This document shows, in pieces, positions 3,931-21,721 of a stretch of DNA of 21,752 nt. A program made the position numbers and the translations under genes. Location of the stretch: positions 1 through 21,752 of the IMG/VR virus record IMGVR_UViG_3300012920_000323. The stretch is one strand, 5' to 3'. Below the pieces are notes generated by a model. It did no database searches. It saw only the letters and a list, made by a program, of their open reading frames with translations, and was not told where the DNA came from. The number at the start of each line of letters is the position of its first letter. Within the stretch, counting starts at the first letter, position 1. The DNA is from a virus.

Positions 3931-4257
3931 CTAAAATCCTATTGATTCACCACAACCACAACTTGACGTTGAAGCAGGGTTTTCTATTGTGAAGTATGAT
4001 CCAAATACTTCCTTCTTATAATCTATTGTACTACCTAACAGGTACATAACACTTGTACCGTCTATAGCGAACTTTCCAGTCGGCAAATCAATAACTTCAT
4101 CATCATCTTTTGCAGACCCATCTAATGACCAATCATACTTGAATCCTGCACAGCCTCCGCCCTTCATTGCTAAACGTACCACTCCTTGCTTTTGTTCAGT
4201 AAGCATTTCGCACATACGTTCTTTGGCATTGTCTGTTAGTTCTACAACTGCTGTCAT
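3931..4257 (-). CDS. A-type iron-sulfur cluster carrier (HesB/IscA family)
   Basis: A 108-residue protein, the usual length for the IscA/ErpA/SufA family, which receives and delivers Fe-S clusters in the cytoplasm. The three family cysteines are present: C36 in GGGCAGFKY, and C100 and C102 in the C-terminal CGCGESI signature, preceded by the typical FTIENP stretch. The ATG at 4257 has an AAGGA ribosome site 7-8 bases upstream and a late-type AATAAATA box just before it. It lies directly upstream of the giant virion gene, a late-expression context. The phage could use it to sustain host Fe-S assembly or to mature a phage enzyme; this is inference. The family call is firm, the specific orthologue is not. 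Confidence 0.93.
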   Translation of the reverse strand: MTAVVELTDNAKERMCEMLTEQKQGVVRLAMKGGGCAGFKYDWSLDGSAKDDDEVIDLPTGKFAIDGTSVMYLLGSTIDYKKEVFGSYFTIENPASTSSCGCGESIGF

Positions 4258-4275: not shown

Positions 4276-4283
4276 TATTTATT
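4276..4283 (-). promoter_or_regulatory. T4-type late promoter box (AATAAATA) for the Fe-S carrier
   Basis: AATAAATA on the minus strand matches the T4 late -10 consensus TATAAATA in 7 of 8 positions. By T4 spacing, transcription would start near 4270, leaving a 13-base leader that holds the AAGGA ribosome site. Confidence 0.6.
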
Positions 4284-4310
4284 AAATATTTTATAATCCG
4301 AATGTAATCA

Positions 4311-4318
4311 GGTAAATA
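4311..4318 (+). promoter_or_regulatory. T4-type late promoter box (GGTAAATA, then CT) at the start codon of the zinc-ribbon gene
   Basis: GGTAAATACT resembles the extended T4 late consensus TATAAATACT. T4 spacing puts +1 at 4324, the A of the ATG, which predicts a leaderless transcript. No ribosome site lies between box and ATG. Confidence 0.5.
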
Positions 4319-4323
4319 CTTAT

Positions 4324-4611
4324 ATGTTTTTAAGAACAGAACAAGAAGTTAAATGGTACGTTAGGAAGTCTAAAAAGGGAAAAACGCACCCTTATAAACG
4401 TGTAAAGACTGTGGTAATATTCGAGTGTGATGATTGCCACAATGAATTCAAACGTGATAAAGGAAAAGTTGATCCTAAAAGATTAGATAATGCATACAAT
4501 CATGTGTGTTCAGATTGCAATCCTAAGCGTTTCGCACAAAAGAAAGGCGTCGAGCAAAGACGCAAACTAAACACACCAATTGATTCGTTAGTTACTATTG
4601 ATCAGTTATAA
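4324..4611 (+). CDS. Small zinc-ribbon protein
   Basis: A 95-residue basic protein with two CxxC pairs (CDDC near residue 35 and CSDC near residue 62) about 24 residues apart, a classic one-zinc ribbon. The flanking lysine-rich segments (RKSKKGK near the start, KRFAQKKGVEQRRK after the second pair) suggest nucleic-acid contact. It is the only plus-strand gene in the left 9 kb, lying between the minus-strand Fe-S carrier and a minus-strand membrane protein whose stop codon begins at the next base. It has no Shine-Dalgarno sequence; a late-type promoter box sits just before the ATG. I do not recognise a named function. A homing-endonuclease-like or transcription-related zinc-binding role is possible but unsupported. 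Confidence 0.82.
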   Translation: MFLRTEQEVKWYVRKSKKGKTHPYKRVKTVVIFECDDCHNEFKRDKGKVDPKRLDNAYNHVCSDCNPKRFAQKKGVEQRRKLNTPIDSLVTIDQL

Positions 4612-4788
4612 TTATTTTTCTGATTTCCAAATAGTCCATGCGCCATAGGCTATGGCCGCATATGCTAATAAACCTGCAAGAGGTTTAGCAATTAGCACGA
4701 TAATACCAAATGCAATAAGAACTGCACCATCCCATGATGTTCTTTCTTTAAATGCTTCTGATACCCATCCTTTAAACTTATCTAACAT
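4612..4788 (-). CDS. Small membrane protein, 58 aa
   Basis: ATG at 4788 preceded by a strong AAGGAGAG ribosome site; TAA at 4612-4614. The product starts MLDKFKGWVSEAFKERTSWD (amphipathic) and continues with one long or two short hydrophobic helices (AVLIAFGIIVLIAKPLAGL, then LAYAAIAYGAWTIW), ending in WKSEK. Such tiny membrane proteins are common in marine T4-like phages and are often of unknown role. It follows the SAP-like gene by 10 bases in the uvdE-SOD transcription unit and is convergent with the zinc-ribbon gene with no gap. A holin-like or membrane-modulating role is only a guess. Confidence 0.78.
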   Translation of the reverse strand: MLDKFKGWVSEAFKERTSWDGAVLIAFGIIVLIAKPLAGLLAYAAIAYGAWTIWKSEK

Positions 4789-4798
4789 ATTACTCTCC

Positions 4799-5041
4799 TT
4801 ATCCGTTTAGTGATTTCAAATGTTTGTGAAGTTGATTAACTAACTTATCTTTGGTTAGTCTTTTATCAAGTTCAAGACCATTCTTTCTTCCGTTTGCTTC
4901 TAATTCAGCCTTAGTCAATTTTTTAAGATCTGCTTTAGAAGGAACAAGAAGTAATGGTTTCTTTTGTGCAACATGATCAGAAAGTTTTAAACCTTTCTTT
5001 TTTTCTGTTGCTCCAAAAATTTTCTTAATCCAATTTAACAC
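4799..5041 (-). CDS. SAP/HeH-like small basic protein
   Basis: An 80-residue lysine-rich protein. Its C-terminal half (LTKAELEANGRKNGLELD, then a RLTKDKLVNQL stretch) has the helix-extended turn-helix pattern of SAP, HeH or Rho-N-like DNA-binding motifs, which phages often carry. The start codon is GTG at 5041, since the overlapping ATG in another frame meets a stop at once. An AGGAG site lies 8 bases upstream, inside the last codons of the SOD gene; one base separates the SOD stop from this GTG, implying translational coupling. A DNA-associated role is inferred; the target is unknown. Confidence 0.8.
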   Translation of the reverse strand: MLNWIKKIFGATEKKKGLKLSDHVAQKKPLLLVPSKADLKKLTKAELEANGRKNGLELDKRLTKDKLVNQLHKHLKSLNG

Positions 5042-5042
5042 A

Positions 5043-5591
5043 TTATTCTCCTTTAGTAAGTGTAATTACACCGCAAGCCAATCTGTCACCAGCGTTTCCG
5101 GTTTTCAAAGACTCAGCGTCACCACCCTTGCCTAAATCATCTTCATTTTCGTGTATTACTATTGCTCTACCAACAATACTACGTTCGCCAATTAATTCAA
5201 TTCTTTCTGCTTTTATAGTAAACTCTGCAACCCCGTCTGAGTTTGCTTCAACGTTACCAAGATCACCGACATGGCCGTTTTCAAGGTCGCCATGCTCTAC
5301 ATTATCTGGATTGTAATGTGCGCCAGCACTTTCACAACCATTAGATAGATCGCCATATTCATGAACATGAAATCCATGAAGTCCTTCGGACAAACCAGTT
5401 ATCCTACCCTTTATAAGAGTAGCAGTGCCTGGCTTCTGCATGAAAAGTATAGTTCCTTTAACCTTATCAGAATGGACTAAATCACAAACTGCGGTTACTG
5501 CTTCTTCAGATTCAACTATTTTATTCAGGCTTTCGCACTGACAAGTTCTTGATTTTGTTCTTTCACAGGCTTTGAATTGTTTAAATCGCAT
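5043..5591 (-). CDS. sodC: Cu/Zn superoxide dismutase, cytosolic type
   Basis: Dismutates superoxide to oxygen and peroxide. All metal ligands align with the eukaryotic SOD1 pattern: copper ligands H75 and H77 in GFHVHEYGD, bridging H92 in GAHYNP, zinc ligands H100, H107 and D110, and copper ligand H147. The disulfide pair C86/C173 and active-site R170 in [10 protein letters not shown] are present. There is no signal peptide, unlike most bacterial SodC, so it should act in the cytoplasm. The domain proper starts near residue 31; the first 30 residues are an odd Cys/Lys-rich extension. The only in-frame ATG (5591) lies 67 bp inside uvdE, directly after a late-type box. A start at a non-ATG codon near the uvdE stop cannot be excluded. 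Confidence 0.92.
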
Positions 5592-6610
5592 ACAGTATTT
5601 AGCGAATATTCACGTAGGTTTTCACTCGCAAGATTCTTGTGTTTAGACTCTACCATAATATCTGCATATTCATTAAACTGTAGAGCCCAATCATTAACTG
5701 CGTTATTCCACATCATATCGCTATGGGCTCGTAGTTTTGCTTTTTTAAAACCTTGTTCAAGTAGTTCATCCATGTTAGGCAAAACGTTAGAGTCATGTCC
5801 GATAAGCAAGTCTTCTCTTGATACAGAATAGTGTATGACCGGACGAACACCTCGCCACGAATCTATTATGCGAGAAAATCTATCGTCGGTGGGCTGAATA
5901 TATTCTCCACTGCGTACCCAGTGGTGGTGTATGTCAAGAACGAGTGCGAGTTCGTTGACAAGTTCAAGCGAGGCTTCAATGCCCCACGACATCTCGTCAT
6001 TCTCAATAGTAATGCAGTTTCGTGCCTCTTGAGATAATCTTGGGAGGACTGCTTTGATACCGGCTGGACCCTTACGGCCGGAGATATGGACGTTACATTT
6101 AAAGTCTTGGAAGGATTTGCCGTAGCCCATCCATCTGATGCAATCAACATGATATTCAAACTCCTCTATACTTCTATTTACTATATCTTCACTTTCAGAT
6201 GCCAACACAGTAAACTGACCAGGATGCATTGAAAGTCTTACATCTAACTTTCTTGCAAGGTCACCAACTGGTGCAAAATGCTTTTCGCAATATTCTCTAA
6301 CATCAGGCTTACGCCAGAAGTAACTCCAAGTAGGTTCTGTGTATACAGGAAGAACATCACTGCCAAGCCTAACCATTCGTAATTCATTAGGCAAACTTCC
6401 TACATATCTAATTAAGTTTTCATAAGACTTAATGTTGTGTACCATGATGTCCCATAACCTTTGTTCTGCGACTTCTTTTGTTTGTCTATTGAGCCATGCA
6501 ACTGTAGTGCTTCTTGTATTCAATGGACGTTGTATTTCCTCAAGAAGTTTTTTCTTCTGAGTCTGGTCAGGGTGCATATATTTGCAGGCAAAGCCTATAC
6601 GTTTTGTCAT
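5525..6610 (-). CDS. uvdE: UV damage endonuclease (UvdE/UvsE family)
   Basis: A 361-residue TIM-barrel endonuclease that nicks DNA 5' of UV photoproducts in an alternative excision pathway. Family motifs are in order: RLGSD near residue 82, RLSMHPGQF near 125, CNVHISG near 172, ITIENDE near 200, DIHHHW near 227, VIHYS near 259, AHSDMM near 296, and the C-terminal MVESKHKN near 319, supplying the metal-binding His/Glu/Asp set. The last 40 residues look like a dispensable tail and overlap the SOD start in another frame. A strong sigma70-like promoter ends 6 bases before the ATG, so the mRNA may be leaderless; there is no Shine-Dalgarno site. The central part (about 5820-6130) is visibly GC-richer than its surroundings (32 and 31 G+C in two 60-base lines), hinting at separate origin. 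Confidence 0.93.
5596..5603 (-). promoter_or_regulatory. T4-type late promoter box (GCTAAATA, then CT) inside uvdE, before SOD
   Basis: GCTAAATACT lies 4 bases before the SOD ATG, within the uvdE coding sequence. It has the same TAAATACT core found before the 4324 and 15202 genes. T4 spacing puts +1 within the ATG, predicting a leaderless or near-leaderless SOD mRNA. It could be a chance match, since it lies in coding DNA. Confidence 0.4.
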
Positions 6611-6616
6611 GCTATA

Positions 6617-6645
6617 ATTATACTATCTTTATTTGGGTAAGTCAA
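6617..6645 (-). promoter_or_regulatory. Sigma70-like promoter for uvdE (TTGACT-17-TATAAT)
   Basis: The -35 TTGACT (6640-6645) and -10 TATAAT (6617-6622) are separated by 17 bp, near-perfect consensus. Expected +1 is at 6610, the A of the uvdE ATG. It begins just after the stop codon of the upstream glycosyltransferase-like gene. Confidence 0.82.
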
Positions 6646-6647
6646 GT

Positions 6648-7346
6648 TTATTTCCAATTTTCTCTACACCATTCATCCACGCAATTATGAGGGTGTGGTT
6701 CACCGTGAAATACTGCAACACTTGTTTGTGGTAAAATTTTTGGTGCACCTGGAATAGCAAAGTTCCTTACACCGTTTATTCTCGTCATTTCAGGTTTGCC
6801 ACGCATTTCCCATTTATAACTTTGTATCCATTCATCTGGCCAAAATGCAAAGTCTTTTTGGACTTGAGAATATATCCAATCTTGATCTCCGTGCATTCTT
6901 TTTGTAGCGGCAAATTGTTGTTTTTCAAATTGATCCCATACCTGCTGTTGCATACCGCTTGTTAATCTAAAAACACTACTGTTCATTTTCTTCCAGTCTG
7001 GTCTTATGTGCCTATTGAAGTCTTTGCATATCGCAAATAAATCTGGTTGGTATGAAAACAACTTATCAATATTTTGAAATATAATAACATCAAGATCAAA
7101 ATACAAAATGTTACCTTGTATAGGAAGATCTCTGTTAAAAAAATAAGGCTTGTACCACCAACCTGAAACTGGAAATTTAGGCAGTGGTAAACACCTTACT
7201 CCTGCTTGTATGTTTGCACTATTGTCTGTGAAACACACAAACTCGTATGGAACTGTGGTATTTCGTTTGACCATGTTAGCCAAAACGTTTACATAATCCG
7301 CACTATACTTGTCGCCCCACTTAAGGCACACAACATAGTTTTTCAT
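6648..7346 (-). CDS. Glycosyltransferase-like protein with DxD motif
   Basis: A 232-residue protein from the ATG at 7346, which has an AGGG ribosome site and follows the queD stop by one base; longer starts inside queD lack a ribosome site. The segment ILYFDLDVIIF (D84, D86) matches the metal/nucleotide-sugar DxD motif of GT-A glycosyltransferases. GDQDW near 153-157 and FHGEPHPH near 213-220 match late motifs of GT8-like enzymes. WWYKPYFF near 63-70 resembles the acceptor-side segment before the DxD. The likely role is transfer of a sugar to phage DNA, a virion protein or host envelope; the acceptor is unknown. Its coupling to queD makes a modified-base substrate thinkable but unproven. Confidence 0.78.
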   Translation of the reverse strand: MKNYVVCLKWGDKYSADYVNVLANMVKRNTTVPYEFVCFTDNSANIQAGVRCLPLPKFPVSGWWYKPYFFNRDLPIQGNILYFDLDVIIFQNIDKLFSYQPDLFAICKDFNRHIRPDWKKMNSSVFRLTSGMQQQVWDQFEKQQFAATKRMHGDQDWIYSQVQKDFAFWPDEWIQSYKWEMRGKPEMTRINGVRNFAIPGAPKILPQTSVAVFHGEPHPHNCVDEWCRENWK

Positions 7347-7347
7347 A

Positions 7348-7815
7348 TTAACCCTCGTAGATTGCTGAGTTGGCGCCATGTTCATAACATTCGACGCTCT
7401 TTACATACACTGTTGGATTCAATGCTTTTCCACTTTTTTCTGCTTTAAGTAATATGTCAGCCATTTTAAAATATGCCAATTCTGCAAAACGTTCTGCACC
7501 TACACCAGGAATAACTCTTACTTCAGCAAGTCCTTTTTCTCCTAATGCTACTAATTCATCTTTCATTGGATCATCTTGTGCAACAACTAATTTGTGATCG
7601 AACATATCTTCCAACCAATTTTTAAATTCTTTAAGGCCTCCAAAGTCCATTACCCAGTTTCTGTCATCAAGTTCATCACAACCAAAAACAAGTTTAAATC
7701 CTAAACTGTATCCGTGAATCAAAGAACAATGTGAGTGTGTTGCACCCCATTGTCTAAATGAGCATGACAATCCTCTATCATTACCATAATTTTTTGTACT
7801 ATAAAATTTTCCCAT
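7348..7815 (-). CDS. queD: QueD-like 6-carboxy-tetrahydropterin synthase (PTPS family)
   Basis: A 155-residue protein of the 6-pyruvoyl/6-carboxy-tetrahydropterin synthase family, which makes the precursor of 7-deazaguanines such as preQ0 and queuosine. Visible features: the C30-x3-H34-G core (family CxxxHGH), NWVMDFGGLK near 53-62 (family W.MDF..L), FDHKLVV with D73/H74, and a C-terminal CYEHGANSAIY with E145. The usual third zinc histidine of HGH is Y36, and the upstream zinc His must be H27 or H29, closer than in E. coli QueD. I recall similar phage forms, but could not check. ATG at 7815 has a TAGGAG site and lies downstream of a perfect sigma70-type promoter. Companion genes for deazaguanine synthesis are not in this window. 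Confidence 0.87.
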   Translation of the reverse strand: MGKFYSTKNYGNDRGLSCSFRQWGATHSHCSLIHGYSLGFKLVFGCDELDDRNWVMDFGGLKEFKNWLEDMFDHKLVVAQDDPMKDELVALGEKGLAEVRVIPGVGAERFAELAYFKMADILLKAEKSGKALNPTVYVKSVECYEHGANSAIYEG

Positions 7816-7882
7816 AATTTTCTCCTACTGTTATATGAGCGGCAGAATTAGAAGGGTTGACGCTAAGACCTTTGTTAAACAT
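7797..7882 (-). CDS. Possible 28-aa leader ORF overlapping the queD start
   Basis: The ATG at 7882 lies 7 bases after the -10 box, at or next to the predicted +1, and opens a frame of about 28 codons (MFNKGLSVNPSNSAAHITVG, then ENYGKIL) that ends inside the start of queD in another frame. There is no ribosome site; it would be read as a leaderless leader peptide. Coding potential cannot be judged from one sequence; chance is likely enough to keep confidence low. The end coordinate is approximate to a codon. Confidence 0.2.
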
Positions 7883-7889
7883 ACTGTAT

Positions 7890-7918
7890 ATTATACAGAA
7901 TTTATTATTCTTTGTCAA
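7890..7918 (-). promoter_or_regulatory. Consensus sigma70-like promoter for queD (TTGACA-17-TATAAT)
   Basis: The -35 TTGACA (7913-7918) and -10 TATAAT (7890-7895) have a 17-bp spacer, an exact consensus promoter. The -35 lies inside the last codons of the upstream oxygenase gene. Expected +1 is about 7882-7883, leaving a leader of about 67 bases before queD. Confidence 0.88.
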
Positions 7919-8543
7919 CCGGTAAATGACCATAATGATGCATTTTGGCGGCAACAAGTGGAATCAATTTCTTACGCATTGAATTGAAACTGACAGTGAT
8001 ACGTTTTTCAGTTTGATTTGGATCTGTTCTATGTTCAAGCCAACTTGGAAATATCAATAGTAAGCCAGTTCTTGGTTTACAACTTGCAAAATAACTGCTA
8101 TAAGGATTTTGTTCTTCAAAAACATCATTCATTCTTAAAGGGCGTAGAGGTGATTCAAAAATTAATGGACAACTGTCATCATCTACATACGGATAAAATG
8201 CACCACTAACTACACTTCCTTCGTGTCTGTGCTTGTCTACTTGTCCATCTTTACCAATTACATTGAACCAACTTGTGCCTAAAATGCTTTCTTCAAGTCC
8301 TGCACTTTTGCAATATAAATCAATACAGTTTTGTATATCTGCTCGTAGTTTACTTAGATCCTTGTGAAATAAAAACTCTTCATCGCCATTTATAAAACTG
8401 CTTTTGCCCTTTAGTATTAAAGCATGATCTCCAGTGTCCCAGTTATCAATTAATTCTAAACACTTTGGAATTTCTGCATGACCAGATAAATCAAATGCAC
8501 TTACCAACGTAGGAAACAAAGCAAGATCTTCTTGATTATACAT
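7905..8543 (-). CDS. 2OG-Fe(II) oxygenase family protein (2OG-FeII_Oxy_5 type)
   Basis: A 212-residue double-stranded beta-helix protein, likely an iron- and 2-oxoglutarate-dependent hydroxylase. It shows the pattern of a family common in marine phages and cyanobacteria: TSWFNVIG near 90-97, iron ligands H105/H107 in KHRHEGSVVSGAFYPY, IFESP near 128, LLLIFPSWLEHRT with the third ligand H171, and RITVSFN with R181 as the likely 2OG-carboxylate contact. The start codon overlaps the upstream gene by 8 bp; the ribosome site is GAGG within that gene. Substrate unknown. A paralogue lacking the metal ligands is encoded at 19950-20513. Confidence 0.85.
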   Translation of the reverse strand: MYNQEDLALFPTLVSAFDLSGHAEIPKCLELIDNWDTGDHALILKGKSSFINGDEEFLFHKDLSKLRADIQNCIDLYCKSAGLEESILGTSWFNVIGKDGQVDKHRHEGSVVSGAFYPYVDDDSCPLIFESPLRPLRMNDVFEEQNPYSSYFASCKPRTGLLLIFPSWLEHRTDPNQTEKRITVSFNSMRKKLIPLVAAKMHHYGHLPVDKE

Positions 8544-9141
8544 TAACCATTTCCTCTAATTTGCTTAATTCATAAAATGCAACATTCTCTTTTTTCCAAG
8601 TATCTGGCATTTCCCAGTCTTTGTTGTTGAATATTCTAAATTGTTTTTTAGGATAATGTTCAAATAATTTTGAAATTTGATGAATCCAAAAACTTGGATC
8701 TATTGGTTTGCTTTCTGCAGATTCATAGTTTCTTGTACCTTTAAAAATATTATTGACAGTATTTGTTTTGCTAAACAAATCAAAGCCTACAAGATCTATA
8801 GTTTCATCTTCCTTACTTAATATACAGCCGATGTAAACTGCATAAGGACCACTACCCCAATGAAATGCTTGATCTCTTTTTTCATCTGTGTTATACCAAA
8901 GTCCTGGTACAACATTTATATTGTGTTTACCACCGAATTCTTCTACCCAGTCTGGCCTTGTCCAAATACCTGATTTAAGATTCACGTATTTACTTAAAGC
9001 CTCTCTGACCATTCTACGATCACAACAAACAATGTGTCGTACTTTCCATTCTCGAAAAATTGCATTACAGCCTACTTTTTCGCCTGGTAAATCATCTAAT
9101 CTAATTGTTTTTCGACTTTCGCCGTTACCTATTATGAGCAT
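8536..9141 (-). CDS. Unknown protein, possibly MptE/sialyltransferase-like fold
   Basis: A 201-residue protein starting MLIIGNGESRKTIRLDDLPG with VGCNAIFREW, an opening resembling the DUF115/MptE-like and some CST-like glycosyltransferase families (IIGNGPS... CNA). IVCCDRRMV near 37, FHWGSGPYAVYIGC near 93-106 and IDLVGFDLF near 114-122 fit an alternating Rossmann-like fold; the GSG..A segment would be in a nucleotide or sugar site. Family assignment is tentative. It is first of a two-gene unit with the oxygenase, starting from the divergent promoter region shared with the big fibre gene. No clear Shine-Dalgarno site precedes the ATG; a TAAATA box sits 4 bases upstream. Confidence 0.75.
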   Translation of the reverse strand: MLIIGNGESRKTIRLDDLPGEKVGCNAIFREWKVRHIVCCDRRMVREALSKYVNLKSGIWTRPDWVEEFGGKHNINVVPGLWYNTDEKRDQAFHWGSGPYAVYIGCILSKEDETIDLVGFDLFSKTNTVNNIFKGTRNYESAESKPIDPSFWIHQISKLFEHYPKKQFRIFNNKDWEMPDTWKKENVAFYELSKLEEMVNV

Positions 9142-9145
9142 ACTA

Positions 9146-9153
9146 TATTTAAT
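9146..9153 (-). promoter_or_regulatory. Weak late-type box (ATTAAATA) before the MptE-like gene
   Basis: ATTAAATA on the minus strand ends 4 bases before the ATG at 9141, the same placement as the box before SOD. It overlaps the plus-strand AATAAATA box at 9151-9158 in a near-palindromic AT-rich stretch, so a by-product of the opposite promoter is possible. Confidence 0.3.
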
Positions 9154-9158
9154 AAATA
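9151..9158 (+). promoter_or_regulatory. T4-type late promoter box (AATAAATA) for the fibre operon
   Basis: AATAAATAC with predicted +1 near 9164 gives a 21-base leader that contains the ATAGGAAAA ribosome site before the ATG at 9185. Its position before a large virion operon fits late expression. Confidence 0.65.
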
Positions 9159-9184
9159 CATATAACGATAGGAAAAATACTGGT

Positions 9185-12100
9185 ATGCCAACAGCAATTC
9201 ATGATATATTTAGGTTTATAAAACTCTACTCGCCAGACGGCACAACACTCGAACATACACTTGAAGCAGATAGTGTAAGTGATGTATTAAGCATACGTAG
9301 AGGAGACGGTGTAAGTTGGAATCTTCCAACTGTTTCACCAAGCACTAATATTGCTGTTACTGTAGGCACAAATACAGGAAACAACCAAATACAAGGTGCA
9401 TATTACTTAGACGGCATAGAACGTAATTCTATTGCACTTGTAAAAGGTAGAGAATATATCTTTGATCAAAGCGATAGTTCAAATGCTTCATTTGGTGGTT
9501 ACTTACACCCACTAACATTTAGTAACACAGTTGATGGCTCAATAAGTGGTGCTATTCAAGGTGTAGAATATGATGATGGTATTACATACTTAATTGATGA
9601 TGCTCCAGTATCTAAAGCAAATTACAAACTTAATTTTACAACATCTACAAACAGAAAAGTCAAAGTATTAGTGCAAGACGAAGCACCTAACACTTTTTAC
9701 TATAATTCACATGATAACATAAATCAAGGTGGTACTATTACTACATCGCCAGGTAATGATATTATGATGATTGATGTTGATTATAGTTTAGACGTTCCTC
9801 CAGGAACAACAAGAGTAGAACTTACAGATGTAAACGCGGCGACAACAGGTGTTGATTTAAGTGCGGCAGGCGGCATTACACTTACAAGAAAAAATGGCAA
9901 TGAAATTGAAATTGGTTCATTTGCTGTTGCGGAAATAGACACACTACACACTGTAACAACAAGAAATTCTATTACAACTAATAAACTATATATGGAAGAT
10001 CTTGAAGTAGGAGATGTTCAAAGTGCAACAGAAGATGGATTTGTTTCTCCTACATCAGAATTTTTAGGTACTGGTACGTTAGGTAATGCACTTAGACTTG
10101 CTATTAATGAAAGAGAAATAACATCTAACACTGTTACAAAAACTTTTGCATTTACGTCTAAACCAGCAAAAGGTATTTTAAATTACACAGTTGGTTTTCA
10201 ACTTGGAAGTGATGCAACTGCAAGTTCTGTAACAGCAAGTATTCAAAGATATAATCCATCAACAACTATATGGGAAACTATCAACACTGTGAGCGGCACA
10301 GGCGGAGTACCATATGAAGTTTCTAATTCATACAACGAGACTTCGGCATCAGGTGCACAATATAGAGCAGTGTATGCGATTGCAGGAAACACAGGAACAA
10401 TTACACTTGAACTTCAAGCATATTATGAGATACATGAAATAACAAATAATCCTGTGCTAAGAACTGAAAGTGCCACAGGCACATTAAGAACAAGAGATTT
10501 AGCACCATTGGGTACAAATGATATTGGTAGAGGAAGTGAGCCATATGATAATGTGTATGCAAATACATTCCACGGACACCTACAAGGAACCTTCGACGGT
10601 GACATAACAGGTTCTGTTTATTCAGATGATTCAACAGTATTAATAGATGCTACAAATGGAAAAATTATTGCTCCAACAGTAGCAGGTGATATTACAGTTG
10701 AAAGCGGACACATTGATTTAGATGACAATTACAAATTAAAATTAGGTACTGGTAATGATCTTGAAATATATCATGATGGAAATCATAATTGGATTGATGG
10801 AAGTCAAGGAGTCACAACTGCTAATACTTACATAAGGTTAGCCCCTGGAGCGGCAACACGTCTAATTGTTGATAACGGATCAAAGACAGCAATAGAAATT
10901 GTTCCTGATTCTTTAATAAGTTTAAATTACGCAGGATTCCAAAAACTTACTACTCAAGGTTATGGTTCAGAAACTACAGGTGAACACAGAGCAACAGATA
11001 GAATGAGAGCGCCAGAGTTTATTGGTGATTTATATGGATCAGTGTTTGGTCCAGACTCATCAGTCGTGATTGATAACAATGGTACTGTAATGGGTGAAGT
11101 TAACAATGCCCAAGTTACTACTGCTAACTTAGAAGCAGGCCTCTTTACTGACACCGTAGGTACAATTACCAACGGTAACATCACAGGCTTTAACAACGTA
11201 AGTGCAGTAAACTTTACAGGTAACTACACAGGTTCATTCTTTGACGATGGTAGCACAATGTTAATTGATGGTATGCGTGGACGTATCGTTGGCACTATTG
11301 ATGCAGATACAAGTAGAGTAGGTCCATTAAATATTAATTCTGATACTTCAATTAAATTTAACAATGGTGTTGGTGTTGATGCCAATGGTAAACTTGTAAA
11401 TGTAGCCAACGCGGCACAACCATTTACAATAGGCAGTCCGGTCACGTTTGAAAGAGAAGCACGTAGTTTCCCAGGCGCACAAGAAGTTATGTTGTACACA
11501 AACGTATCAACTGGAACATATGATATTGATACAACGGCTACACAGAATGTATATTGGAACCAACCAAGTGGTTCTCTTGTTGCTAACTTTACAGGACTTG
11601 AAACAAGTACACAAAGAGTAAGACGTGTAAGAATACACATTAAAACAAGTGGTACTGCTGTAATTCCTACAATGGAAGTAAATGGTGTTACACAGACTCC
11701 AACAGATTTAGGTACTGTTATAAGTAAAATTAATTCATTAAACATTTACGAATACACATTCTATAGAACACATACAAACGTATGGGAAATATATCGTAAA
11801 CAGTTAGATGCTGGCAACCTTTCATTAGACTTAGGTGATGTTTTAGCAAACGGTAATACAACTACTTTAGGTATTAGTACAACTAATAAGATTAATGCAA
11901 ACGAACTTGAGGTAAGTTTAAGTGGAACAGTGTATGGAAACTTTACTGCAACGTCTACTCCGGCGGCTGGATTCTTCACATTTAAAGACGGTGATTTACG
12001 TCTTGAATCAAATAATATTGTACACAATTCAGGAAATGCATATGTTCAATGGAAAAGTACAACACAAATGATGCCACAAACTACAACACCATCAGGAGTT

Positions 12101-12418
12101 ACAGCATTTGATTTCACGGATACTGATACTCATTATGTGTATCAACCAGCGGCGGCATGGACACCTAATATAACAAACATACCTAACGTTGCTCAGAGAG
12201 TTACAAACATAAGATTCTTTGTTATACAAACTGCAACACCTTATATTCCAAGTTCATGTCAAGTTGACGGAGTTGCTCAAACAGTTGCTTGGCAAAACGG
12301 TGTTACACCTACAGGTACTGCAAGTGGTGTAGACTTTGTTCAACTTACAGTAATTCAAACTAATGCAGGACTGTCTCCTACATATGTTGTTATTGGACAG
12401 TCAAATAGTTATTCATAA
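9185..12418 (+). CDS. Long tail fibre / adhesin protein, 1077 aa
   Basis: The start is ATG 9185 (MPTAIHDIFRFIKLYSPDGT); upstream codons in frame run through the opposite gene and lack a ribosome site. Domains in order: N-terminal part; a cupredoxin-like domain at about 68-178 (RNSIALVKGREYIFDQSDSS, HPLTFS, then TFYYNSHDN); a NDLEIYHDGNHNWIDG motif near 522, widespread in marine phage fibres; three repeats of the type G.l.Gs.f.DdSt.liD..nG.i (near residues 460-495, 608-640 and 675-710); and two related C-terminal beta domains at about 750-873 and 961-1075. It heads a plus-strand operon with the 387-aa and 52-aa proteins. Role: fibre shaft and possibly receptor contact, inferred from motif content. 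Confidence 0.9.
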   Translation: MPTAIHDIFRFIKLYSPDGTTLEHTLEADSVSDVLSIRRGDGVSWNLPTVSPSTNIAVTVGTNTGNNQIQGAYYLDGIERNSIALVKGREYIFDQSDSSNASFGGYLHPLTFSNTVDGSISGAIQGVEYDDGITYLIDDAPVSKANYKLNFTTSTNRKVKVLVQDEAPNTFYYNSHDNINQGGTITTSPGNDIMMIDVDYSLDVPPGTTRVELTDVNAATTGVDLSAAGGITLTRKNGNEIEIGSFAVAEIDTLHTVTTRNSITTNKLYMEDLEVGDVQSATEDGFVSPTSEFLGTGTLGNALRLAINEREITSNTVTKTFAFTSKPAKGILNYTVGFQLGSDATASSVTASIQRYNPSTTIWETINTVSGTGGVPYEVSNSYNETSASGAQYRAVYAIAGNTGTITLELQAYYEIHEITNNPVLRTESATGTLRTRDLAPLGTNDIGRGSEPYDNVYANTFHGHLQGTFDGDITGSVYSDDSTVLIDATNGKIIAPTVAGDITVESGHIDLDDNYKLKLGTGNDLEIYHDGNHNWIDGSQGVTTANTYIRLAPGAATRLIVDNGSKTAIEIVPDSLISLNYAGFQKLTTQGYGSETTGEHRATDRMRAPEFIGDLYGSVFGPDSSVVIDNNGTVMGEVNNAQVTTANLEAGLFTDTVGTITNGNITGFNNVSAVNFTGNYTGSFFDDGSTMLIDGMRGRIVGTIDADTSRVGPLNINSDTSIKFNNGVGVDANGKLVNVANAAQPFTIGSPVTFEREARSFPGAQEVMLYTNVSTGTYDIDTTATQNVYWNQPSGSLVANFTGLETSTQRVRRVRIHIKTSGTAVIPTMEVNGVTQTPTDLGTVISKINSLNIYEYTFYRTHTNVWEIYRKQLDAGNLSLDLGDVLANGNTTTLGISTTNKINANELEVSLSGTVYGNFTATSTPAAGFFTFKDGDLRLESNNIVHNSGNAYVQWKSTTQMMPQTTTPSGVTAFDFTDTDTHYVYQPAAAWTPNITNIPNVAQRVTNIRFFVIQTATPYIPSSCQVDGVAQTVAWQNGVTPTGTASGVDFVQLTVIQTNAGLSPTYVVIGQSNSYS
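10560..11310 (+). repeat. Three G.lxGSvf.DDSt.liD repeat modules in the fibre
   Basis: Protein-level repeats: FHGHLQGTFDGDITGSVYSD with DSTVLIDATNGKI; FIGDLYGSVFGPDSSVVIDN with NGTVMGEV; FTGNYTGSFFDDGSTMLID with GMRGRIVGTI. They are separated by other sequence, including the EIYHDG motif. They resemble beta-helical shaft repeats of phage fibres. Boundaries approximate. Confidence 0.7.
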
Positions 12419-12427
12419 GGATAAGTC

Positions 12428-13591
12428 ATGTCCGCTACCTTAGACACTTTTGGACTTAATGTAGATAGGAAGAACGGTTTTCTATTATGTACTGCAAATA
12501 ATGTCAACGATACAGATACCACTGGTAAACTAATTTACTTTCCTATAGGTGACTTAGGAAACCCACAAATAAAAACTTATACTAATACTTTTTTTGCAAG
12601 TGTCAACTGGATGGGCGATAAAGCAGTCGTAGGAAATTACGCAACAAATCCAATAGTTTACACCAGTAGAAATCCTAAACCAGATTTTAGTGCTTTACCT
12701 GGAAGATTTGTTGCAGGTAGCGAGGCACTAACAAATAATTTTCCATGGTATTGGAGTTATGCTGGAGGTCATTTAATTACTCACGGTATTAGAACATCGG
12801 CACAAGTTGGAACTACAGTTTACAGCACCAGCGATGGACACACATTCAGCAGTCAAACTATGAGTGGTGGATCAACCACAGGAGCATACACAAACTTTGT
12901 AGAAGTAAGAGATGCCAATGGCGATACAGCAGTAGGTACAATAAGATTAGATGGTGCTTATTGGCATAGAAGCCAAAAAAATAATGTTACAATGAGCGGC
13001 ATTGGTTCGGCAGGTGGTTCTGCGTCAGGTGCTTTTGGAGGAACCGTATATGGTTTAACCGTGTGGCCAGGCAAAAACGGAGACGGTAGCGATAGATTAT
13101 ATATTTGTCGCGGAAATACTATAAGTCAAAAAAATAATGATCCTATTGCAAATGCTTGGAGTAATGCAATAACAACTATACCTGGAAATAATTTTGCACA
13201 ATTTAGTTACAACATAAGATATCTAAAAGGTGTTGATCTATTATATTTGCCATCAGGTGTTTGGGGAGGTTCAGATGCTTGGTACAAGCCTTTGATAAGA
13301 TATCACAATGGTACTGCTATGTTCATTGCATCATCAAGTGCTGTTGACGATCTTAATTTATTTTTAATGGACTTTGCAGGTGACGATGAAGGTAATATCA
13401 TAGGAATAGGCAGAGCATGGGATAATGCTAACAGCACTTTCGGACCTACCACAGATTACATATACCTAAATGGACCTAACCACGGAGGCGGCAACTGGCA
13501 GGCTGGCACATTACCAACACCTGTAGATGTACTACCAGGAAGTCAACAACTTGTTTATTGTGGTATGGACTCACCAACTTATAGGGGATAA
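12428..13591 (+). CDS. Probable tail fibre tip / receptor-binding protein, 387 aa
   Basis: The ATG at 12428 lies 9 bases after the fibre stop, with an AAGGATAA ribosome site between, so it is co-expressed with the fibre. The protein is rich in Gly, Asn, Ser, Thr, Tyr and Trp, typical of exposed beta structure. TVYSTSDGHTFSSQ near residues 128-141 resembles an Asp-box of sialidase-like beta-propellers, and other blades may be NPIVYTSRN near 74 and DRLYICRGNTISQ near 222. No catalytic set is recognisable. A fibre-tip adhesin acting with the long fibre is the best inference; a chaperone-like assembly role is the alternative. Confidence 0.75.
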   Translation: MSATLDTFGLNVDRKNGFLLCTANNVNDTDTTGKLIYFPIGDLGNPQIKTYTNTFFASVNWMGDKAVVGNYATNPIVYTSRNPKPDFSALPGRFVAGSEALTNNFPWYWSYAGGHLITHGIRTSAQVGTTVYSTSDGHTFSSQTMSGGSTTGAYTNFVEVRDANGDTAVGTIRLDGAYWHRSQKNNVTMSGIGSAGGSASGAFGGTVYGLTVWPGKNGDGSDRLYICRGNTISQKNNDPIANAWSNAITTIPGNNFAQFSYNIRYLKGVDLLYLPSGVWGGSDAWYKPLIRYHNGTAMFIASSSAVDDLNLFLMDFAGDDEGNIIGIGRAWDNANSTFGPTTDYIYLNGPNHGGGNWQAGTLPTPVDVLPGSQQLVYCGMDSPTYRG

Positions 13592-13592
13592 C

Positions 13593-13751
13593 ATGACAGT
13601 ACAAGATGAATTACCAATTAGTAAAAAACAACAAGTAAAGGTGGACTTAGATAAGCCAGTTGATATAGGTGCTCCTATTGTTCCACAAGATCATGTTGAT
13701 GAGAAACCACCATCAGCGCCAACTGATAATATGAAACCGACTACTTCTTAG
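13593..13751 (+). CDS. Small Pro/Lys/Asp-rich hypothetical protein, 52 aa
   Basis: The ATG at 13593 follows the previous stop by one base and has an AGGGGATA ribosome site made by the end of that gene; a longer frame from 13527 lacks support. The product (MTVQDELPISKKQQ..., PSAPTDNMKPTTS at the end) is hydrophilic, low-complexity and probably disordered. It ends in an 11-bp tail-to-tail overlap with the minus-strand membrane protein gene. Function unknown; position after the fibre tip might suggest a small virion or assembly component. Confidence 0.65.
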   Translation: MTVQDELPISKKQQVKVDLDKPVDIGAPIVPQDHVDEKPPSAPTDNMKPTTS

Positions 13752-14070
13752 AATTCTTTTTTGGATCTAATTGTTTGATATCGTCTTTGACTTCTTTGAT
13801 ATCAGTAAGTATTTTTTCAAATTGTTTATTTGTATTTGTAAGTAGATTGAATAAATCCTTGACAGCATAAATTACCCACCACCACCATGTAAATGCTACA
13901 ATGGCAAATGATAATGCTATTCCACACACTATCCAATCAACCCATGTATCAACATCAAACGTAAGTGCAAGTATAAGTCCAACCAAGGCAGTGAGTGGAG
14001 CCACTTTACCTATCCATGACCAAAAATTGACCTGCTGGTCTGTCTTTAATTTATGAAAATATCTTAACAC
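13741..14070 (-). CDS. Small membrane protein with C-terminal coiled coil, 109 aa
   Basis: GTG start at 14070 (VLRYFHKLK in the DNA), 4 bases after the fibre stop, with a GGGTAGG ribosome site overlapping that stop. Two hydrophobic helices at about residues 26-39 and 46-69, the second ending in a run of four Trp (WWWW), are followed by a charged heptad-like segment (LLTNTNKQFEKILTDIKEV...). The N-in topology with a cytoplasmic coiled coil resembles holin or spanin-like small phage proteins, but the family is not recognised. It is last of the unit formed by the 430-aa gene and the second fibre. Confidence 0.75.
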   Translation of the reverse strand: MLRYFHKLKTDQQVNFWSWIGKVAPLTALVGLILALTFDVDTWVDWIVCGIALSFAIVAFTWWWWVIYAVKDLFNLLTNTNKQFEKILTDIKEVKDDIKQLDPKKNSKK

Positions 14071-14074
14071 CGGC

Positions 14075-15202
14075 CTACCCTTGGATTATACCAAACTTGG
14101 ACCAATTGCCAGGACTTCCTTCTCTTGTGCAAATCCAACCTACGTGTCCGTTTGGTACTGGTTCTGTATTCCAAACAATATCACCTTTTTTCCATAAACC
14201 ATCTGATGGTGCGGTGTTACTATTTGCAAACTTCTTACCTTCAAACTTGATAGGACCTGCTACTTCAAAATTCAATGACGGATTAGATACACCAATACCT
14301 ACTTTGCCAAACATTGAAATTTGTGTTTGTGTGTTTTCTGGTTGACCCATTCTTATATGTCCGTATGGTGAAATAGCAATTCTTGAAGTGCTATCTGTAA
14401 TAATTTTTAGTTCACTTGTTGAATGTGTACCAAGTACTACAGTTTCACCTTGTGGATCAACGATAAATTCTGCTTGTTCACTGCTAATGCTTAACTGTCC
14501 ATTAGGTGCTTCAGTTCCAATTGATAGACGCATAGCATCTCCGTCCCAGAACAAAAAGTCGTCAACAGTTAAGTTGCCGTCGACTACCAAGTTCTGTAAA
14601 CGTCCAACTGTACGTAAACTTGAATTAATAATTGTTTCACCTAAAGTATTTGCAGTTAAAACAGGAGTGTTATCAATATTATAACTTGCATCTCTATGTA
14701 AATCAATTGGCTCGCTACTCCATAATCTTGATGGATTAGTTTGTAGAATAAAACTCTTTGCTCCGCCATCTGACTTCCATTGTAAACCTTTTCCAATTGG
14801 CGAGTCACCATTGCTTGAATCAAACACAAGTGAGTCACTGCGTTCTTGTCTGATGTCAGCGGTTAATTCATTTACGTGTAAACTGTTACATTCAAGATGA
14901 CCGTCAACAGTCAATTGACCTGTAACTGTTGTATCACCTGAAATCTTATCTGCATTTACAGTATCTACAGTAATGCCATTGTTGTCAATAAGTAGGATTG
15001 TTCTGTTTGCTTGGTCTGTAATACCAGTGCTTCGGAACTGTGTGATCTTTCCGCCCTGAATTGCATTACCTGTTAACTGTCTATCCTCGATACGTTGTAC
15101 CGGAACAATACGGTTAGCAATTACCTCAAGAGTATTACCGAGTTCAGCAAGACCCTTTTTTACCTGTTGTATTTCGTTATTATCAATGTCATTGTACTGC
15201 AT
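14075..15202 (-). CDS. Virion fibre protein, 375 aa
   Basis: Repeated short beta motifs typical of phage fibres: GDTTVTGQLTVDGHLECNSL near 90-108, VDGNLTVDDFLFWDGDAMRL near 206-225, and KVGIGVSNPSLNFEVAGPI near 296-314. The C-terminal KKGDIVWNTEPVPNGHVGW, then CTREGSPGNWSKFG, is a compact module seen at the ends of many marine-phage fibres, possibly carbohydrate-binding. The N-terminus is helical (NNEIQQVKKGLAELGNTLEV), a likely trimerisation or attachment segment. The ATG lies 8 bases after the 430-aa gene's stop; there is no Shine-Dalgarno site but a TAAATACT late-type box overlaps that stop, predicting +1 at the ATG. Confidence 0.85.
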   Translation of the reverse strand: MQYNDIDNNEIQQVKKGLAELGNTLEVIANRIVPVQRIEDRQLTGNAIQGGKITQFRSTGITDQANRTILLIDNNGITVDTVNADKISGDTTVTGQLTVDGHLECNSLHVNELTADIRQERSDSLVFDSSNGDSPIGKGLQWKSDGGAKSFILQTNPSRLWSSEPIDLHRDASYNIDNTPVLTANTLGETIINSSLRTVGRLQNLVVDGNLTVDDFLFWDGDAMRLSIGTEAPNGQLSISSEQAEFIVDPQGETVVLGTHSTSELKIITDSTSRIAISPYGHIRMGQPENTQTQISMFGKVGIGVSNPSLNFEVAGPIKFEGKKFANSNTAPSDGLWKKGDIVWNTEPVPNGHVGWICTREGSPGNWSKFGIIQG

Positions 15203-15207
15203 ATTAG

Positions 15208-15215
15208 TATTTATC
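15208..15215 (-). promoter_or_regulatory. T4-type late promoter box (GATAAATA, then CT) at the start codon of the second fibre
   Basis: GATAAATACT overlaps the stop codon of the 430-aa gene. T4 late spacing places +1 at 15202, the A of the fibre ATG, so a leaderless late mRNA is predicted. The sequence TAAATACTAATATG nearly equals TAAATACTTATATG before the 4324 gene. Confidence 0.55.
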
Positions 15216-19080: not shown

Positions 19081-19088
19081 TATTTATT
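19081..19088 (-). promoter_or_regulatory. T4-type late promoter box (AATAAATA) at the tRNA-Arg 3' end
   Basis: AATAAATA begins with the final A of the encoded CCA. Expected +1 is near 19075, leaving a short leader with an AAAGGTGA ribosome site before the 19057 gene. Confidence 0.55.
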
Positions 19089-19164
19089 GGCCTGCCTGAG
19101 AGGATTCGAACCTCTGACCTCCGGTTCCGCAAACCGACGTTCTATCCAACTGAACTACAGGCAG
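19088..19164 (-). tRNA. tRNA-Arg, anticodon GCG, CCA encoded
   Basis: Full cloverleaf: 7-bp acceptor stem CTGCCTG/CAGGCAG (perfect), D stem GTTC/GAAC with GGA in the loop (A20, an arginine identity base), anticodon stem TCGGT/ACCGG with loop TTGCGGA (anticodon GCG), T arm AGAGG-TTCGAAT-CCTCT, discriminator G and encoded CCA. GCG would read CGC and CGU. Bacteria normally read these with an ACG (inosine) tRNA, so this anticodon is unusual. It has its own sigma70-like promoter and lies behind a terminator. Confidence 0.95.
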
Positions 19165-20541: not shown

Positions 20542-20617
20542 TGGTGCCGGCACACGGATTCGAACCGCGGACCTACTGATTACAAATCAGTTGCTCTACC
20601 AACTGAGCTATGCCGGC
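20542..20617 (-). tRNA. tRNA-Thr, anticodon TGT, CCA encoded
   Basis: Full cloverleaf: acceptor GCCGGCA/TGCCGGC, D stem GCTC/GAGC with GGTA in the loop, anticodon stem ACTGA/TCAGT with loop TTTGTAA (anticodon TGT, reads ACA and others), T arm CGCGG-TTCGAAT-CCGTG with one G-T pair, discriminator A and encoded CCA. It is embedded in a minus-strand unit between the WYL_2 gene and the degenerate oxygenase gene. The first 10 bases are also the end of the upstream CDS. Confidence 0.97.
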
Positions 20618-20893: not shown

Positions 20894-21721
20894 TTACTCT
20901 CCAAATGCTATTTGTTCGAACCAACGATCTGCAATTTGCAAATGACTCTTTGGCCCTGGGTGTTGATGATCTCTTGCATGATCTATTTCTACTTCTTTAG
21001 GATTAATTTGTGCAACACTTTCAGTTGGTAGTGTTTGCTTAATTATTTCGTTAGTTTCTCTACCCCAACTCCATACACTTATCATACTATCGTTAATGTT
21101 TGATATATCGTTGAGCCAATTTAAATAATTAATTGTTCTATGTATTTCTAATTCTTCCCAATAGTTTCTAATATATGCCATGTGATCTGGATTAGACTCA
21201 TCAAGGCCAGAGCCTATAATCATGTTCGTATGTTGCCATTCTTTTTCATATTGAGGCCAACAAAATCTGCTATAGTCAGGTAATAAGAACAATGCTTTAT
21301 CAAACCCTATCAATCTTTCAGCAACACTATAACATTTAACAATGTTATCAATGCTACTCCCAACCATGCCAAAATTCATTATGTCATAGTCTGGAAAATA
21401 ACTTTTTAAATGAGTAGTATAGATATCTTTTTCATCTACACCTACACCAAATGTGCAACTGTCACCAAACACTGCAATACGTACTTTTCTGCTTAGGTCA
21501 AGATTCCAATCGCCTCTAAAGCCATACTCATTAATGTTATAACGTGTAGGACCATTAGGGTCTACATTCCATTCTTCACTGTCTTTGAATGGTCCGCATG
21601 TAAAAGACTTGTTAGGTTTGTACTCCGGACAAGTTAACATATACTCGTGAAACTTTACAAGGTCGTGCTTGTCGTTCATCAGTGCTGGACTTAACTGTGA
21701 TAGATTGTCTATGCCGTCCAT
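20894..21721 (-). CDS. SGNH/GDSL-type hydrolase, 275 aa
   Basis: Block I IAVFGDSCTFGVGV supplies the nucleophile S88; block II is NFGMVGSSIDN with G121; the C-terminal RDHQHPG gives the D251-x-x-H254 catalytic pair of block V. The family includes esterases, lipases and acyl-sugar deacetylases. There is no signal peptide. The N-terminal 80 residues (including RYNINEYGFRGDWNL) match the segment often seen before block I in SGNH proteins acting on carbohydrate, where YG.RG is typical. A deacetylase or esterase modifying surface polysaccharide or a virion glycan is inferred. The ATG at 21721 has an AGG site about 9 bases upstream; the gene lies in a unit that begins to the right of the window. 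Confidence 0.85.
   Translation of the reverse strand: MDGIDNLSQLSPALMNDKHDLVKFHEYMLTCPEYKPNKSFTCGPFKDSEEWNVDPNGPTRYNINEYGFRGDWNLDLSRKVRIAVFGDSCTFGVGVDEKDIYTTHLKSYFPDYDIMNFGMVGSSIDNIVKCYSVAERLIGFDKALFLLPDYSRFCWPQYEKEWQHTNMIIGSGLDESNPDHMAYIRNYWEELEIHRTINYLNWLNDISNINDSMISVWSWGRETNEIIKQTLPTESVAQINPKEVEIDHARDHQHPGPKSHLQIADRWFEQIAFGE

Follow-up and report, generated by a model that had tools for sequence, protein, structure and literature searches.

We analysed a virus fragment of 21,752 bases (IMG/VR record IMGVR_UViG_3300012920_000323, here called the window), in which the hexamer TAAATA, resembling the box of T4-type late promoters, ends 4-5 nucleotides (nt) before the ATG of four genes (Table 1). 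These start at 4324 (+), 5591 (-), 9141 (-) and 15202 (-), and code for a zinc-ribbon-like protein, a Cu/Zn superoxide dismutase (SOD), the product of a phrog_30607 open reading frame (ORF) and a tail-fibre-like virion protein, respectively. The first-pass annotation had placed an octamer, TAAATACT, immediately before the first, second and fourth of these ATGs, and all three copies in the window lie there (4313-4320 +, 5601-5594 - and 15213-15206 -), each directly 5' of the ATG. It had regarded the box before the gene at 9141 as weaker; the position was right, and the gene is a full fourth case, with TAAATA 4 nt before the ATG and also present in a homologue. The full octamer was dropped as the motif, since the CT that follows the hexamer is not kept in homologues and the conserved unit is TAAATA. 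None of the four genes has a Shine-Dalgarno site (AGGA, GGAG or GAGG within 17 nt of the start in the window, read by eye), as the annotation had held for its three, while its statement that nearly all other genes have one was overstated (about 10 of the 23 other starts). The genes at 5525-6610, 6648-7385 and 20894-21721 are also without a Shine-Dalgarno site.

The octamer count alone is unremarkable, with at least three copies in 26 of 100 shuffles of the window, and this could suggest that a common A/T-rich hexamer has fallen by chance before starts that are themselves A/T-rich. The position of the hexamer speaks against it: TAAATA occurs 17 times on the two strands, and four copies end 4-6 nt before one of the 27 gene starts, versus 0.032 expected by random placement (Poisson P = 4e-8). 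Over the predicted genes of eight related contigs (1,045 ORFs, called greedily, so that their starts are approximate), the distances between box and ATG are bimodal, with 73 cases at 4-6 nt, homologous genes included, 19 at 7-14 nt and 112 at 15-30 nt. There is a sharp peak of 56 cases at exactly 5 nt, where the best of 14 rearranged hexamers reaches 11. The zone of 7-14 nt, with 2.4 cases per position, is at the level of the background, 2.7 per position at 31-60 nt; such a gap would be expected if genes must either do without a leader or have one with room for a Shine-Dalgarno site. The enrichment at start codons proposed for the rest of the genome was borne out elsewhere, TAAATA being the top hexamer at 5 nt before the ATG in four of six relatives (G001, G002, G003 and G008) and in the cultured Pelagibacter phage HTVC008M; in G004 and G007, with four cases each at 5 nt, it ranks second. 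The box-at-start peak is also found in the cultured Pelagibacter phage Mosig. Phage T4, in which 35 boxes lie at 15-30 nt and none at 4-6 nt, was the positive control for late promoters of the ordinary kind, and by the same distance counts the 5-nt peak was not found in Syn9 and M12, which have the leadered mode only. Chance placement, to which we assign practically no probability, is refuted by these counts and by the conservation of the box in dozens of homologues.

Comparison of homologous loci showed that the box is kept before the ATG in the zinc-ribbon and fibre homologues and in most of those of SOD. It stands 4-7 nt before the ATG in each of the 44 zinc-ribbon homologues found, which comprise 21 distinct start regions; the bases between box and ATG drift, and the T at -1 is invariant. 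Among 33 distinct SOD start regions, 27 have the box at 4-8 nt, some of them behind other upstream genes, and in all four homologues of the fibre gene (L127-L130) it lies at 5 nt. Homologues of the 9141 ORF carry it at 4 nt in G001 (TAAATACCGTATG) and at 5 nt in G003. The boxes could still be ordinary late promoters if translation began at a downstream in-frame codon, so that the mRNA would be leadered, and the start codons of the relatives are indeed predicted, not measured. However, no alternative in-frame start occurs through codon 28 of the zinc-ribbon gene, 49 of SOD, 42 of the 9141 ORF and 59 of the fibre gene, and conservation of the zinc-ribbon protein begins at codon 1 (M1-F2, R4, E6 and E8 are invariant in 22 sequences, with third-position variation from codon 2 on). 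Moreover, the ATG itself is kept at a fixed spacing from the box and the annotators of HTVC008M picked the same starts, and we consider a downstream start very unlikely.

A leaderless model predicts ATG-only starts, a pyrimidine at -1 and the loss of the Shine-Dalgarno site, none of which was used in defining the box-at-start class. In the eight contigs, the start codons at 5 nt are 56 ATG and no GTG or TTG, and the ratio of ATG to GTG/TTG is 73 to 1 at 4-6 nt versus 112 to 17 at 15-30 nt (Fisher P = 0.0037). The base at -1 is a pyrimidine in 96% of cases at 5 nt and in 93% at 4-6 nt, compared with 38% at those starts in these genomes that have just a Shine-Dalgarno site, which would fit a transcription initiator. 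The hexamer could instead be an A/T-rich translation-initiation element of Shine-Dalgarno-poor phages, with no promoter function and with transcripts starting further upstream. This would agree with the missing Shine-Dalgarno sites of the box-at-start genes and with the occurrence in the relatives of other genes without such a site, but the identical hexamer stands at 15-30 nt alongside a Shine-Dalgarno site in the same genomes, TAAATA is specific among rearranged A/T hexamers, and the box is fixed at 5 nt with the pyrimidine at -1. In HTVC008M, the divergent end-protector and head-closure genes have only 26 nt between their ATGs, a gap that contains both boxes only, and we regard the initiation element as improbable. 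Box-at-start proteins often begin with M-x2-4-[DE]-[FIL] (24 of 73 versus about 8% of other genes), a set that consists partly of SOD homologues. The Alt and internal proteins of T4 have capsid-targeting N-termini that resemble this pattern, and by analogy some box-at-start proteins, including SOD, might be packaged in the phage head.

G001 encodes a gp55-type late sigma factor of 277 amino acids (aa) at 14111-14944 (L131; phrog_12791 1.7e-76, phrog_234 2.9e-23), and G002 gave a gp55 match by tblastn. The factor was found via tblastn and PHROGs; the Pfam accession PF05025, guessed for gp55, was rejected as the wrong family (RbsD_FucU). The gp55-type sigma factors of the window clade are long, at 277-290 aa (185 in HTVC008M), and carry about 100 additional residues ahead of the conserved part. 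Two relatives have gp25-like baseplate wedge proteins among the products of their box-at-start genes; other products of this class are fibres, a PAAR protein, a ClpA-like ATPase and SOD, the last two being accessory products among mainly late-type genes. In HTVC008M, 12 of 14 TAAATAN5ATG sites coincide with annotated start codons, mostly of virion genes, among them the tape measure, end protector (gp2), head closure and baseplate genes.

These observations support the leaderless late mRNAs that the first-pass annotation had proposed, through AUG-only starts, the gap at 7-14 nt, the -1 pyrimidine, the missing Shine-Dalgarno sites, the late-type genes and gp55 in the relatives. We consider it very probable that the boxes are gp55-type late promoters with the transcription start (+1) on the A of the AUG. 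A gp55-type sigma factor on the host RNA polymerase would recognise TAAATA as the -10 element of T4-type late promoters, and at a subset of genes this box would be placed so that transcription begins at the A of the ATG. The 5 nt between box and +1 would be as in T4, where this spacing of late transcription is established. The resulting mRNA would be translated from its 5'-terminal AUG without a Shine-Dalgarno site, while other late genes of the same phages would have the same box 15-30 nt upstream and an ordinary leader. What we infer from these sequence patterns is that the boxes act as promoters, exactly where +1 lies, and that translation is leaderless.

Several points weigh against leaderless transcription from these boxes. 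In the window, two of the four genes have a distance of 4 nt, at which rigid T4 spacing would place +1 on the T of the ATG, and start-site choice must therefore flex by one base; with the same rigid spacing, the few SOD homologues at 7-8 nt would have leaders of 1-3 nt. There is no gp55 in the window fragment, and its presence is deduced from the relatives. A Shine-Dalgarno match is found in 5% of box-at-start genes versus 72% of leadered-box genes in the eight contigs, a comparison that is partly forced, since the box occupies that site. Finally, the gene starts of the relatives are not curated, and homologues are counted among the 73 cases.

Table 1. Late-type boxes and associated genes in the window
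Feature	Position	Strand	Remark
Late-type box TAAATA	4313..4318	+	ends 5 nt before ATG 4324; predicted promoter of a leaderless mRNA, +1 on the A
Zinc-ribbon-like ORF, 95 aa, predicted leaderless	4324..4611	+	
Second TAAATA, possible additional promoter	4283..4288	+	35 nt before ATG 4324
Late-type box TAAATA	5596..5601	-	4 nt before ATG 5591; inside 3' end of UvdE-like gene
Cu/Zn superoxide dismutase, predicted leaderless	5043..5591	-	Pfam Sod_Cu 3.7e-47
Late-type box TAAATA	9146..9151	-	4 nt before ATG 9141 (TAAATATAGTATG)
phrog_30607 ORF (function unknown), predicted leaderless	8536..9141	-	
Late-type box TAAATA	15208..15213	-	5 nt before ATG 15202
Tail-fibre-like virion protein, 375 aa, predicted leaderless	14075..15202	-	PHROG tail and virion matches
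Late-type box at leadered distance	4276..4281	-	18 nt before ATG of Fe-S gene 3931-4257, AAGGAA between
Late-type box at leadered distance	9153..9158	+	26 nt before ATG 9185 of large fibre-like ORF
TAAATA at leadered distance	19086	-	23 nt before ATG 19057

The leadered box of the Fe-S gene is an internal control, lying in the same intergenic region as the leaderless zinc-ribbon box. This Fe-S biosynthesis-like gene has its box 5 nt before the ATG in G003 (70525-70848) and G012 (1854-2177), an apparent switch of class between the window and these contigs. The two boxes at 9146-9158 are divergent and separated by a single base (TATTTAATAAATA), with the predicted leaderless gene on one side and the leadered fibre-like gene on the other. 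The start of SOD overlaps the UvdE-like gene by 67 nt (5525-5591), and its promoter box also codes for the UvdE tail, beyond the conserved domain of that protein. We tentatively raise the possibility, which we hold to be less probable than not, of a two-class late programme run by a single sigma factor in marine T4-superfamily phages, in which the distance of the box would set whether an mRNA is leaderless or Shine-Dalgarno-led, translation late in infection would differ between the two classes, and orthologues would switch class by moving the box.

In a nucleotide search, matches of the window in the phage collection were limited to tRNAs. The window holds tRNA-Arg (gcg) and tRNA-Thr (tgt) at 19088-19164 and 20542-20617, and the latter is 94-96% identical to a tRNA in Acinetobacter phage records. 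Its zinc-ribbon, SOD and fibre proteins have close relatives on marine IMG/VR contigs, including the 156-kb G001. The portal protein of G001 is about 50% identical to those of the jumbo T4-superfamily phages Sinorhizobium phage Phosso and Agrobacterium phage Atu_ph07, followed in likeness by the Serratia BF / GAP32 / PA5oct group, and contigs carrying SOD homologues reach 221 kb. The window therefore most likely belongs to a branch of the T4 superfamily that is marine and of jumbo type.

Among other phages, Melnitz and P-SSM4 have three box-at-start genes each, which may be isolated cases. Raw pattern counts were barely above the control or lay below it in Syn9, P-SSM2, S-ShM2, KVP40, S-PM2, Cr30, P-SSM4, Melnitz, GAP32, PA5oct, Phosso and Vibrio 2.275.O. 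T4 had 10 raw matches versus 5 in the control, none at gene starts, and Atu_ph07 had 15 versus 9, yet just two at gene starts in 400 kb. HTVC008M is distant from the window clade (about 30% for gp55, 37% for gp23), and the box-at-start class would therefore have arisen more than once or been exchanged. In G003 (46567-48618), HTVC008M (11921-13807) and Melnitz (54825-56876), the box stands 5 nt before the ATG of a CHASE2-cyclase-like gene, and the cyclases of these distant phages share a similar N-terminus, MK..THW.TA. Perhaps this gene was exchanged together with its promoter.

Late expression of the T4 type is a textbook system with leadered, Shine-Dalgarno-led mRNAs. The system described here shares gp55, found in the relatives, with the T4 late promoters (gp55/gp33/gp45), and its boxes would also resemble them in the -10-only A/T box (TATAAATA core, no -35) and in the spacing of box and start. 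They differ in that the T4 boxes mostly lie 20-30 nt before the ATG, leaving room for a leader, and are absent from 4-6 nt, whereas here one class stands at the start codon; position -12 is A in 53-58%, and -13 is mostly G or A rather than the T of the T4 consensus, with the TAAATA core present. Leaderless mRNAs are known from lambda cI. In Sinorhizobium meliloti, 171 leaderless mRNAs have been mapped, all beginning with AUG (PMC3616915). The predicted phage transcripts would likewise start at AUG only and have no Shine-Dalgarno site, although bacterial leaderless mRNAs come from host-sigma promoters at scattered genes and those proposed here from a phage late sigma factor at a set of late genes. 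The late promoters of phiKZ have a TATG motif with transcription starting at the G (PMC5312081), so that in this jumbo phage, too, a promoter motif is able to overlap the start codon; the differences are the phage-encoded multisubunit RNA polymerase, the other motif and the start on G.

A study of pelagimyophages, the same kind of phage as HTVC008M, was unsuccessful in predicting late promoters by cyanophage rules (PMC7029224), and cyanophage work confined its search for TATAAAT to intergenic sequence or to positions no more than 10 bp from the upstream gene (PMC3037559). The failed pelagimyophage prediction could be due in part to boxes that stand immediately at the ATG. No earlier report of leaderless late mRNAs in T4-like phages was found in the open full-text literature, subscription papers being outside the scope of the search, and the novelty of such a class is provisional. 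If our reading is true, the position of the promoter also defines the start of translation in abundant marine phages, including cultured phages of SAR11. A leaderless late class would help to correct start-codon annotation and would give a direct test of leaderless mRNA translation in infected marine bacteria.

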